This document shows, one piece after another, positions 28,801 to 35,644 of a stretch of 64,000 nt of DNA. Both the position numbers and the translations under genes were made by a program. How positions within the stretch are numbered: the first letter of the stretch is position 1; each line of letters begins with the position of its first letter. The stretch comes from Bacteroidia bacterium (GTDB taxonomy: Bacteria > Bacteroidota > Bacteroidia > Chitinophagales > UBA2359), in the NCBI GenBank assembly GCA_030427245.1, contig JAUHXA010000001.1:155899-219898 (forward strand). Reading direction: 5' to 3'. The notes under the pieces were generated by a model. It saw only the letters and a program-made list of their open reading frames with translations, was not told the origin of the DNA and searched no databases.

Positions 28801-29655
28801 ATGAAATCCAACACCTTTTACCTCTTCATTTTGATAGCTTGTGCCCTTGCTTTTACTGCCTGCAATAAAAAACCCAAAACAAGCAATAACGACTCTAATA
28901 AGACGGAATTGACTTCCAACGAGGATACCAATAATTCCTCTAATGATAGTAGCGACAAGGACAATGGCGATGGCTACAAACGTTATGAAATCAAATCGGG
29001 CATTGTAGAAACCGAAACAACAGGTACAATGAATTCGGGTACAGAAACCATTTACTTCGATGATTACGGACGTAGAGAAGCCAAGTACACCAAAACTACG
29101 GTAAGTGTGCCAGGAGTAAACATCAAACAGACCTCGAATCAATTGACTATTATGGACGGTGATTGGATGTATAGCATTGACCTCGACAAAAAGACAGGCT
29201 ACAAAATGAAGCCCGAAATGCTCGAAGATATGGCGAAAAATCAAGGCACAAAAGATTTGGGCAAAGTCGGTAAGGAAATGTTGGAGCAAATGGGGGGCAA
29301 AAAAGTGGGAGAAGAAAAGGTGTTGGGTAAAAATGCAGATGTGTGGGAAATGTCGAATATGGGAACCAAGATATGGGTTTGGAAAGGAATCACCCTCAAA
29401 ACGGAAACCAATATGATGGGAATGAAAATCAACCAAACTGCCACCAAATTAGAAATCAATGTGTCTGTTCCAGATGAAAAATTTGAAGTTCCTGAAGATG
29501 TGTCGATTTCTGAAGAAAATCCAATGGATAAATTAAAGGAATTGAACGGAGGGCTGGACAATTTGAAGGATTTGGATTTAGATAAATTGAAGGATATTGA
29601 CATGAGCAAACTCAAAGAAGCACAGGAAGCATTGAAGAAAATGCAAGGAAATTAA
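28801..29655 (+). CDS. DUF4412-like lipoprotein
   Basis: The 284-residue lipoprotein has a lipobox FTAC (Cys21) followed by a long Asn/Asp/Ser/Thr-rich linker. A beta domain with YKRYEIKSGIVETETTGTMN and YFDDYGRREAKYTK resembles DUF4412-type domains. The C-terminus has a short repetitive Leu/Lys/Asp tail (NLKDLDLDKLKDIDMSKLKE). Function is unknown. It is exported and attached to the membrane. Confidence 0.7.
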   Translation: MKSNTFYLFILIACALAFTACNKKPKTSNNDSNKTELTSNEDTNNSSNDSSDKDNGDGYKRYEIKSGIVETETTGTMNSGTETIYFDDYGRREAKYTKTTVSVPGVNIKQTSNQLTIMDGDWMYSIDLDKKTGYKMKPEMLEDMAKNQGTKDLGKVGKEMLEQMGGKKVGEEKVLGKNADVWEMSNMGTKIWVWKGITLKTETNMMGMKINQTATKLEINVSVPDEKFEVPEDVSISEENPMDKLKELNGGLDNLKDLDLDKLKDIDMSKLKEAQEALKKMQGN

Positions 29656-30595: not shown

Positions 30596-31237
30596 GAGGG
30601 AACATAACAACAAAAAAATTATTTCTTCGATCGAGACTTTTGGAAATTTCCTTACTGTCCTTCGTAAATGTTTTAGCTATGCCCCTTCCTATACAAATTT
30701 TGGAATGGGCATAGTTGTTTTTTCTACTCGCTTGCTATTGCTCTTGCAATGGACTTTCCTTAGATTGTTATCATCCACACTTTATCCACATTCTTAATGT
30801 GGATATGTTAACAACCTTTAGGGATTTACTAAAAAAATAAGTATTTCTTTGATTACAAGAAAGTACATTTATAGCTAAAAAATAATGAGTTAAGTCCTCA
30901 ATCCAAGACTGTGCCAAAGGTTACGGCAAAAGACTAAAAGTTATCCACAATAAGTGGATAAATTATATTGACAACTATTCACAAGAAATTCTACCTTAGC
31001 ACTGTCAAAGATTACAGAGAAGAGCCTATCTATTGATAAAACAATTACATTGTTTGAAGTGCCAAATTATCTCTCTAATTTTCTTTTTTGAAGAGGTAAC
31101 CAGCCGTTAACCATCTACTTCAAAATATTAAAAACGCATTTGCCCATCATTGAAATATTCATTTATTTCTAAGGCCATTTTTATGCACCTTATCAAAACA
31201 TTAAAGTCAAACAAACTCAAAAGAAATACTCCAAATT
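30596..31237. other. Longest gene-free stretch of the window
   Basis: About 640 bp with no supportable ORF or RNA gene, between an exported-protein gene and nrdB on the same strand. It contains AT-rich tracts around 30820-30900 and a cluster of DnaA boxes listed separately. No NrdR-type box was noticed by eye. Confidence 0.6.
30771..30983. promoter_or_regulatory. Cluster of DnaA boxes (candidate oriC or DnaA-controlled nrd promoter region)
   Basis: Two perfect TTATCCACA boxes lie at 30782-30790 (+) and 30941-30949 (+). One-mismatch boxes are at 30771-30779 (+, TCATCCACA), 30798-30806 (-, ATATCCACA) and 30953-30961 (-, TTATCCACT), and a weak one at 30975-30983 (+). They form two face-to-face pairs: TATCCACAT-N5-ATGTGGATA (30783-30805) and TTATCCACA-N3-AGTGGATAA (30941-30961). 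AT-rich sequence lies between them. The cluster is about 250 bp upstream of nrdB, whose E. coli counterpart is DnaA-regulated. It also lies close to a global change in gene direction. Confidence 0.6.
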
Positions 31238-32206
31238 ATGAGCATTGAACCAATATTGCAAGAAAATAAAGACCGATTCGTACTGTTCCCGATCAAGCAC
31301 GATAAGGTCTGGGAAATGTACAAACAACACGAAGCGAGTTTTTGGACAGCGGAAGAAATAGACCTCAGTCAAGACCTCACAGATTGGTCAAATCTAAATA
31401 ATGACGAAAAACATTTTATCAAACACATCTTGGCATTTTTTGCGGCAAGTGATGGGATTGTGAACGAGAATTTGGTCATCAACTTTATGCGGGAAGTACA
31501 AATACCAGAGGCCAGATGTTTTTACGGATTCCAAATCGCCATCGAAAACATTCACGCTGAGACGTATAGCCTACTCATAGATACCTACATCAAAGACCCC
31601 GCCGAACAAAAATATCTCTTCAATGCCCTGGAAACGGTTCCTTGTGTGAAGAAAAAAGCAGATTGGGCATTGCGTTGGATTGAAGATGCTCCCTCTTTTG
31701 CACACCGTTTGATTGCCTTTGCAGCTGTTGAAGGGATTTTCTTTAGTGGCAGTTTCTGCTCTATTTTTTGGTTGAAAAAACGTGGTTTGATGCCTGGTCT
31801 TTCGTTCTCCAATGAGTTGATTTCGAGGGATGAAGGTTTGCATTGCGATTTTGCTTGTTTGCTGTATTCCATGTTGGTCAATAAGTTACCTGAAAGTGAG
31901 GTACAATCTATTATTAGAGAAGCGGTAGATGGCGAAAAAGAATTTGTGGGGGATGCACTGCCTGTTTCCTTGATTGGCATGAACGCCGATATGATGAAAC
32001 AATACATCGAATTTGTAGCAGACCGTTTGTTGGTTGCCTTGGGCTGTGCTAAATTATACAATGCCTCCAATCCTTTTCCTTTTATGGAAATGATTAGTTT
32101 ACAGGGGAAGACCAATTTTTTCGAAAAGCGCGTGAGCGAGTATTCCAAATCTGGAGTTGCAGTAGATTCTGACAAACAATCATTTGCTATGGATGAAGAT
32201 TTTTAA
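31238..32206 (+). CDS. nrdB: Ribonucleoside-diphosphate reductase class I, beta subunit
   Basis: The 322-residue di-iron protein supplies the tyrosyl radical for dNTP synthesis. Iron ligands are visible in the first helix pair ([15 protein letters not shown]), in [13 protein letters not shown] with the E-xx-H-xxx-Y arrangement containing the radical Tyr, and in the later [14 protein letters not shown]. This is class Ia/b-like. It is followed by dinD (19 bp) and nrdA, so the reductase genes are split. An array of DnaA boxes lies upstream. Confidence 0.97.
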
Positions 32207-32225: not shown

Positions 32226-33065
32226 ATGAAAAAGGAATTAATCGAAGAATTACTTAAAAAATTTGAAGAGGCTTGTCAAGATGTAGAAGGCATTGAATGT
32301 TGGAGTGCAAGAGACATGCAAGTTTTATTGGGTTATACTAAATGGAGTAATTTTAGCAAGGTAGTGGATAAAGCAAAAGAAAGTTGTATAAATTCTGGCG
32401 AAAAAGAAACAGACCATTTTGCTACAGTCGGTAAAATGGTCATTATTGGTTCAGGTGCAGAAAGGGAACTTAAAGACATTGCTTTAACAAGATATGCCTG
32501 CTATTTGGTAGCCCAAAATGGTAATTCTTCAAAGCCAGAAATTGCTTTTGCACAAACTTACTTTGCAGTTCAAACAAGAAAACAAGAAATAATTGAGCAA
32601 CGATTATTAGAAACTGAACGAGTTAATGCAAGAGAAAAACTTTCAGAATCAGAAAAAGTATTATCAGGAATCATTTTTGAGAGAGGCGTAAATAATCGAA
32701 GCTTTGGTAGAATTCGCTCCAAAGGTGACCAAGCTTTGTTTGGGGGATTAACTACCCGTTCTATGAAAGAGCGTTTGAATGTACCTTCAAGAAGACCTCT
32801 TGCAGATTTCTTACCTACTCTTACCATCAAAGCAAAAGATTTTGCCGCAGAATTGACCAGTCATAATGTCATTGAAAAGAATTTACACGGAGACAAGCAT
32901 ATTACAACCGAGCATGTGGATAATAATTCTGCAATACGGACCATTTTACTTCAACGAGGAGTAAAACCAGAAGATTTGCCTCCCGAAGAAGATATAAAAA
33001 AACTGCAAAGGCGTTTTAAAAACGACTCAAAGAAAATTATCAAAGCACTAAAAAGCAGGAAATAA
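32226..33065 (+). CDS. dinD: DNA damage-inducible protein D
   Basis: The 279-residue protein has the DinD/BRO-N-like N-terminal fold (ECWSARDMQVLLGYTKWSNF; ALTRYACYLVAQNGN) and the typical C-terminus with FGGLTTRSMKERLNVP and PLADFLPTLTIKAKDFA. In E. coli DinD is an SOS-induced inhibitor of RecA filaments. It lies 19 bp after nrdB and 92 bp before nrdA. A stretch I counted has about 32% GC against about 43% in nrdA, so it probably inserted between the two reductase genes by transfer. Confidence 0.92.
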   Translation: MKKELIEELLKKFEEACQDVEGIECWSARDMQVLLGYTKWSNFSKVVDKAKESCINSGEKETDHFATVGKMVIIGSGAERELKDIALTRYACYLVAQNGNSSKPEIAFAQTYFAVQTRKQEIIEQRLLETERVNAREKLSESEKVLSGIIFERGVNNRSFGRIRSKGDQALFGGLTTRSMKERLNVPSRRPLADFLPTLTIKAKDFAAELTSHNVIEKNLHGDKHITTEHVDNNSAIRTILLQRGVKPEDLPPEEDIKKLQRRFKNDSKKIIKALKSRK

Positions 33066-33157: not shown

Positions 33158-35644
33158 ATGATGCAAGTAATCAAACGAGACGGACGAACCGAACCTGTAA
33201 AATTTGATAAAGTTACCGCTCGTATAGAAAGACTCTCCTATGGTTTAGACCGCCGATACATCGAACCCGTAGAAGTCGCCATGAAAGTCGTACAAGGTAT
33301 TTACAACAATGTGACAACGACAGAATTAGACAATTTAGCCGCAGAAACCTCTGCAAGTATGGCCACCAAACATCCTGATTACGCCATACTTGCAGCTCGT
33401 ATTGCGGTGTCTAATCTGCACAAAAGCACAAAGAAATCCTTTTCCGAAACCATGACCGACCTCTACAACTACATTGACCCTAAAACTGGGGAAGCGGCTG
33501 GTCTTATTTCTGAAACCCTCTTCAATACCATCCAAAAACACCAAGAGCGCATTGATGCCAATGTACTCTACAACCGAGATTATACCTTTGATTATTTTGG
33601 ATTCAAGACCTTGGAGCGTTCTTACCTACTCAAAATGAATGGTGAAATTGTGGAGCGACCACAGCATTTGTTCATGCGTGTAGCATTGGGTATTCACGGA
33701 GAAGATATTGATGCGGCTTTAGAAACCTACGATTTGATGTCGCAAAAGTGGTTTATCCATGCCACTCCTACCCTCTTCAATGCAGGAACAACGAAACCAC
33801 AACTATCAAGTTGTTTTTTGGTGCAGATGCAAGACGATTCCATTGAAGGGATTTACAATACCCTTTCGCAATGCGCCAAAATTTCGCAAGCAGCAGGCGG
33901 TATCGGTTTGAACATTCACAATGTCAGAGCAAAAGGCAGCTACATCAAAGGAACAGGCGGTGTATCGAATGGGCTTGTTCCGATGTTGCAGGTCTATAAT
34001 ATGACTGCTCGCTATGTTGACCAAGGTGGCGGAAAACGAAAAGGGGCATTTGCTATGTACCTCGAACCGTGGCACTCCGACATATTTGATTTCTTGGATT
34101 TGAAGAAAAATCACGGCAAGGAAGAAATGCGGGCAAGAGATTTGTTTTATGCGATGTGGACACCTGATTTGTTCATGAAGCGGGTGATGGATGATGGCGA
34201 ATGGTCGTTGTTTTGTCCAAGTGAAGCACCTGGATTGTATGATGTGTATGGCGATGAATTTGAGGAGCTTTACACACGCTATGAACGAGAAGGCAAAGCA
34301 CGTTCTACGGTGAAAGCACAAGAATTGTGGTTCAAAATTTTGGATTCCCAAATCGAAACAGGCACACCCTACATGCTCTACAAAGACCACGCAAACCGCA
34401 AATCCAACCAAAAGAATTTGGGAACAATTCGGTCGAGCAATTTGTGCTGCGAAATCATGGAATACACTTCAAAGGAGGAAACCGCAGTCTGTAATTTGGC
34501 GAGCATCAATCTCTCTAAATTTGTCGAAAATGGTGAATTCAATCACGACCGCCTTTTTGAAATTACCCAAATCGTGACCCGCAACCTCAATAAGGTCATT
34601 GACATCAACTACTATCCCGTTGAAGAGGCTCGAACTTCCAATATGCGTCACCGCCCGATTGGGATTGGCGTGCAAGGTTTGGCAGATGCTTTCATGCTGT
34701 TGCGAATGCCTTTTGATGGAGAAGAAGCCCGTCAGTTGAACAAAGAAATTTTTGAAACGATTTACTTCGGTGCATTGACCGCCTCCAATAAGTTGGCAGA
34801 GCGAGATGGCGCTTACGAATCCTTTGAAGGTTCTCCTGCAAGTCAAGGCATTTTGCAGTACGATATGTGGAATGTTGAACCGTCTATGCGTTGGGATTGG
34901 TACACTTTGAAGGCTAATATTTTGAAGCACGGTATCCGAAACAGTCTTTTGGTTGCTCCAATGCCAACCGCTTCTACTTCTCAGATTTTGGGCAACAATG
35001 AATGTTTTGAGCCTTATACCTCCAATATTTATACCCGTCGGGTATTGTCTGGTGAGTTTATCATCGTGAACAAGCACTTATTGAAGGACTTAATCAACAG
35101 AGGTTTCTGGAATGATTCTATGAAAAATGCGCTGATAGCGAGCAATGGTTCGATTCAAGGTTTTGAAGGGTTGCCACAAGACATCAAAGATTTATACAAA
35201 ACATCTTGGGAAATCAAACAGAAAGTGGTTTTGGACATGGCAGCGGATAGGGGTGCTTTTATTTGCCAAAGTCAAAGCATGAATGTGTTTTTGGAAAGTG
35301 CCAACTACAAAAAGTTGTCGTCCATGCACTTCTACGCTTGGAAAAAAGGCTTGAAAACAGGTATGTATTATTTACGCACCCGCCCTGCTGTCGACCCGAT
35401 TAAATTCACTGTTGATATGACACAACTTCAACAGTCACAGTCCCAATCCTACAATCAATACAATCCAAGTAGAAATTATCAACAAAATAATTTTAGTAAA
35501 CAGCAACAACAACCGCAAACGGTATCGGCTCTTCCCTCCAATGGCGTAGAGTCTGTTACCGTTACTGCGGATGATATCGCGAAGGTGAATGCTGCCAATG
35601 CTTGTAGTATTGACAATCCTGATTGTGAGGCTTGTGGGTCATAA
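33158..35644 (+). CDS. nrdA: Ribonucleoside-diphosphate reductase class I, alpha subunit
   Basis: The 828-residue catalytic subunit reduces ribonucleotides. It has an N-terminal ATP-cone (about 1-95; [20 protein letters not shown]), a redox Cys in QLSSCFLVQ, the radical Cys in [13 protein letters not shown] and the partner Cys in [11 protein letters not shown]. The C-terminal tail ends in [13 protein letters not shown] with cysteines that re-reduce the active site. The presence of the ATP-cone suggests allosteric activity control. A Gln/Asn/Ser-rich stretch (about 745-785) links body and tail. It ends at a strong terminator and shares an operon with nrdB and dinD. Confidence 0.97.

Follow-up and report, generated by a model that had tools for sequence, protein, structure and literature searches.

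In Escherichia coli, the nrdAB promoter carries DnaA boxes (PMC8203912; ChIP-seq in PMC11317965), and DnaA activates or represses nrdAB depending on its level and nucleotide state (PMC11317965, PMC8203912). The E. coli protein favors pairs of boxes that are 2 to 3 bp apart (PMC11317965, PMC8203912). In Caulobacter crescentus, nrdAB has been proposed as a member of the DnaA regulon, in which dnaB and dnaQ have predicted boxes (PMC8203912). How Bacteroidota match the dNTP supply to replication has been little described so far. The open-access papers searched covered E. coli, Caulobacter, and general reviews, and none was found that describes nrd as controlled by DnaA in Bacteroidota.

Here, we analyzed a stretch of 64,000 nucleotides (the window; G000:C172:155899-219898) from a 7.58-Mb draft genome of 187 contigs, whose closest named relatives are uncultured Bacteroidota labeled Bacteroidetes, Chitinophagales, Sphingobacteriales, or Saprospiraceae. 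The window contains a cluster of DnaA boxes upstream of the ribonucleotide reductase genes. This cluster probably serves the nrdBA promoter as an operator that would regulate, and probably activate, nrdBA, with DnaA as the most likely binding protein.

Results

The 642-bp region from 30596 to 31237 is longer than any other gene-free stretch in the window, as had been predicted. It ends at nrdB, which encodes the small subunit of class I ribonucleotide reductase (31238..32206, + strand, 322 amino acids; Pfam PF00268, E value of 8e-120). Farther downstream lies nrdA, encoding the large subunit with an ATP-cone (33158..35644, + strand, 828 amino acids; Pfam PF02867, PF00317, and PF03477). Between the two genes, we found a DinD-like gene at 32226-33065 (+ strand) that matched DNA damage-inducible protein D (NCBIfam PRK11525, E value of 3e-105) and carried a Bro-N domain. 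At this position, the gene was absent from all relatives among 110 nrdB loci. The nrdB-nrdA gap in loci L003 and L020 was filled by other, unrelated genes.

The 9-mer TTATCCACA is the DnaA consensus of E. coli. The original prediction described two perfect and three one-mismatch copies of it ahead of nrdB, and all five were recovered at the same positions, spanning 191 bp. They fall into two groups, 150 bp apart, that differ in their spacings. The distal group consists of a one-mismatch box, TCATCCACA (30771..30779, + strand), a perfect box, TTATCCACA (30782..30790, + strand), and a second one-mismatch box, ATATCCACA (30798..30806, - strand). The other group is a pair, TTATCCACA-ATA-AGTGGATAA (30941-30961), made of a perfect upstream arm, TTATCCACA (30941..30949, + strand), and a one-mismatch promoter-proximal arm, TTATCCACT (30953..30961, - strand). 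Both face-to-face arrangements that had been noted were therefore present, one at 30782(+)/30798(-) with a 7-bp gap and one at 30941(+)/30953(-) with a 3-bp gap. According to a Poisson estimate, the probability that at least five boxes, each with no more than one mismatch, would occur in 191 bp by chance is 5e-9, or about 2e-6 across the window. The locus thus has DnaA-consensus boxes upstream of a ribonucleotide reductase operon, including a closely spaced double box within the 2- to 3-bp range, as found at a DnaA-regulated nrd promoter. However, the double box is face-to-face, whereas the E. coli nrdAB pair is head-to-tail (TTATCCACAaagTTATGCACT), and it stands ahead of a Bacteroidota -33/-7 promoter, unlike that of E. 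coli (see below).

We examined the region upstream of nrdB in a same-family set of 17 genomes from 12 genera. The face-to-face pair TTATCCACA-N1-4-TGTGGATAA, with at least 16 of 18 positions matched and at most 800 bp upstream of nrdB, was found in 16 of the 17 genomes; in Markov shuffles, it was expected in 0.005 of the 17 on average. Exactly one such pair exists in the 249-kb contig. A palindrome whose eight-base arms are perfect and separated by a short gap occurred once each in the genome under study and in two relatives (G005 and G010), always at nrdB. The gap between the arms, 3 bp in the window, ranged from 1 to 4 bp in the relatives. The arrangement of the boxes followed the lineage, being a pair, a single box, or a -/+/- triple (Hymenobacter). 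The Hymenobacter nrdB loci (L080-L131) often had the -/+/- triple or its +/- part, with 6- to 7-bp gaps, upstream of nrdB. Loci of one genus are not independent of each other in these comparisons, and some order-level relatives (e.g., L025 and L070) had weak boxes or none. The upstream neighbors of the boxes, the open reading frames at 28801 and 29873, had no match in the nrdB loci of the relatives, where 1.5 to 3 kb upstream of nrdB was covered, but the box region did. Since the boxes are conserved across relatives and the far-side neighbors are not, the boxes belong to nrdB.

Bacteroidota sigma-A promoters have the element TAnnTTTG at -12 to -5 (PMC9723704). A candidate for this -7 element, TACCTTAG (30992..30999, + strand), starts 30 bp past the end of the pair and predicts a transcript start near 31004. 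A candidate -33 element, TTG (30968..30970, + strand), was picked by eye at the 7th base past the pair, and TTG or TTTG was found at the equivalent position in L004, L005, L008, L009, and L015. These two elements place the pair at about -63 to -43. The distance from the pair to the -7 element was 29 to 30 bp in 12 family genomes and 40 bp in L014, L020, and L021, which corresponds to one extra helical turn. The promoter-proximal arm thus keeps a set distance to the -7 element in the relatives, with the promoter itself predicted from its motif.

The same geometry was seen in a wider sample of 108 nonidentical nrdB upstream regions from Bacteroidota, including Pontibacter, Adhaeribacter, and Rufibacter. 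With boxes of at least 8 of 9 matches, the end of the box was 28 to 30, 39 to 40, 50, or 61 bp from the -7 element, with one case at 63 bp; no box was found at 0 to 27, 31 to 38, or 41 to 49 bp. Relaxing the threshold to 7 of 9 added five weaker matches at 17 to 20 bp and one at 41 bp. After similar spacers were collapsed, 26 cases remained, with a Rayleigh R of 0.77 at a 10.5-bp period (P of about 2e-7); 4 of the 55 scrambled control words that had eight or more cases came to a similar R. The scrambled words averaged 5.9 cases, and none of them reached 26. A composite pattern (GTGGATAA, 28 to 31 bp, TAnnTTWG) had three matches in the genome under study, two of them within reading frames and the sole intergenic one at nrdB, and across 19 genomes nrdB was the only recurring target. 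Other promoters with a phased box were sought genome-wide and rejected as candidates, as the matches lay inside reading frames or before nonrecurrent genes.

Which protein would bind these boxes was considered next. NrdR, usually the regulator of these genes, also acts on E. coli nrdAB, but it was found in none of the 45 genomes searched, including the genome under study; the controls were positive in 9 of 14 genomes. The boxes at the phased position of nrdB occurred as TTATGCACA, TTATACACA, TTTTCCACN, TTCTCCACA, TTATCAACA, and ATATCCACA. This set overlaps that of an origin-like cluster in the genome under study (TTATCAACA, TTTTCCACA, TTCTCCACA, and ATATCCACA; see below). Of the 15 same-family genomes compared, 10 also had a box cluster ahead of dnaB. 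In the genome under study, this cluster lies at G000:C71:12189-12338 (10189-10338 of L048), and the dnaB gene carries an intein. The distances from the dnaB boxes to the -7 element were mixed (39, 50, and 42 bp), so phasing is not claimed for dnaB. Seven DnaA-like boxes, three of them perfect, were located just upstream of recQ at a contig end (C95:20-249; L049). The recQ upstream regions of 18 relatives, which served as a negative control, had no box cluster, and recQ was rejected as a conserved DnaA target because its cluster is confined to the genome under study.

A dedicated dimeric transcription factor other than DnaA could bind the palindrome, the half-site being equal to a DnaA box by coincidence. 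The pair is a palindrome found nowhere else in the genome; closely spaced and face-to-face, it resembles the sites of dimeric repressors or activators, whereas the double boxes of E. coli are head-to-tail. Its position and phasing would also be compatible with any regulator. However, the gap between the arms varies, single boxes or triples with another spacing take the place of the pair in other lineages, the box variants match those of the origin-like cluster, and dnaB has the same 9-mer in other arrangements. Because the arrangements vary by lineage, recognition of a single 9-mer suits the data better than an obligate dimer, and we regard such a factor as unlikely.

It is highly improbable that the boxes serve to titrate or reactivate DnaA, as a datA or DARS site does, and lie beside nrdB by accident. 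The two groups with their different spacings would suit such a site, and DARS1 of E. coli is associated with uvrB (PMC11317965). However, the distance to the nrdB promoter is fixed and helically phased in many genomes, and several relatives have promoter-proximal boxes only.

The main reading in the original prediction made the cluster a candidate for the chromosomal origin (oriC); both forks would then depart from it. Like an oriC, the five boxes lie in an AT-rich, gene-free stretch, close to a local change in gene direction, and a shallow minimum in the cumulative GC skew of the contig is not far off. The change in gene direction had been called global. Genes are indeed minus-rich before 25.5 kb and plus-rich from 25.6 to 50.9 kb, but between 51 and 63 kb they return to the minus strand; the plus-strand block at the boxes is local, about 25 kb, and the direction flips several times along the whole 249-kb contig. 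GC skew was near zero at the boxes, and the cumulative skew of this draft contig had a double minimum, shallow at both places, near 24 kb and near 74 kb in window coordinates, the latter past the window end. Shallow local minima, a weak signal in a draft of 187 contigs, were found on C172 and on another contig, C45, alike, and the skew sampled in two Cytophagales chromosomes was too weak for an exact placing of the minimum. The verdict on the origin does not lean on skew, for which the evidence is weak on all sides.

The genome has 126 perfect TTATCCACA sites. Among the first 100 of them, the densest cluster was not the one at nrdB but one on C45 (99557-100496; L045/L046), with six perfect and seven one-mismatch boxes. 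It sits in a long intergenic stretch where the local GC skew changes sign, going from -0.15 to +0.04, and it is likely the true oriC of this genome. This cluster does not adjoin dnaA, which is on C106, and no zero-mismatch boxes were found near dnaA. In the relative G001, the densest cluster among the matches listed had 10 perfect boxes (27 at one mismatch) and lay beside an ssb-like gene on C107, a contig without nrdB, which is on C41. No synteny was found between the clusters on C45 and C107, so oriC was assigned by box density and not by neighbors. The complete Hymenobacter qilianensis chromosome has an origin-like cluster (1,534,303-1,534,806) that is 174 kb away from nrdB (about 1,360,468). 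Adhaeribacter aquaticus (the L075 record) had many DnaA boxes spread across about 40 kb (1.192-1.233 Mb), near a GC-skew change, with no single tight cluster. Unlike an oriC, the nrdB cluster has fewer boxes, is tied to one promoter, and is surpassed in density elsewhere in its genome, and its boxes track nrdB and its promoter rather than the locus; an origin at nrdB was therefore rejected as very unlikely.

Discussion

DnaA control of nrd, which the original prediction had offered as the rival of an origin, is strongly favored, as other genera have kept the boxes together with nrdB and its promoter and have not kept the far-side genes. Proteins that contact RNA polymerase typically have sites upstream of the promoter that stay on a single helix face. 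The helical phasing of the boxes upstream of the nrdB promoter therefore favors activation, as far as we can infer. In the mechanism that we propose, the pair at 30941-30961 stands directly upstream of the candidate -33/-7 promoter, on a set helix face relative to RNA polymerase, and DnaA bound to it would contact the polymerase. The availability of DnaA would raise nrdBA transcription, and the dNTP supply would thereby be tied to replication. The three distal boxes may contribute further binding, either cooperative or repressing. DnaA as the binding protein, activation as its effect, and a possible role of ATP- versus ADP-DnaA are our interpretation of the sequence comparisons.

The proposed control resembles that of C. 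crescentus, where replication genes including dnaB and nrd are proposed DnaA targets. It differs in the phylum and the promoter type, and in its basis, which is conservation and phasing here and expression there. What would set it apart from the known DnaA-nrd control is that the boxes, most likely DnaA sites, are face-to-face and helically phased with a Bacteroidota promoter. The results also call for caution before a DnaA-box cluster in a draft genome of Bacteroidota is named an origin.

More tentatively, DnaA may be the principal regulator of ribonucleotide reductase in Bacteroidota that lack NrdR, acting as a phased activator from a box, single or face-to-face, directly upstream of the nrdBA promoter. 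It may also control dnaB, and this small replication regulon would then be older than the sampled genera. An operator that is conserved and so exactly phased with its promoter along the helix predicts an activating role of DnaA at nrdBA.
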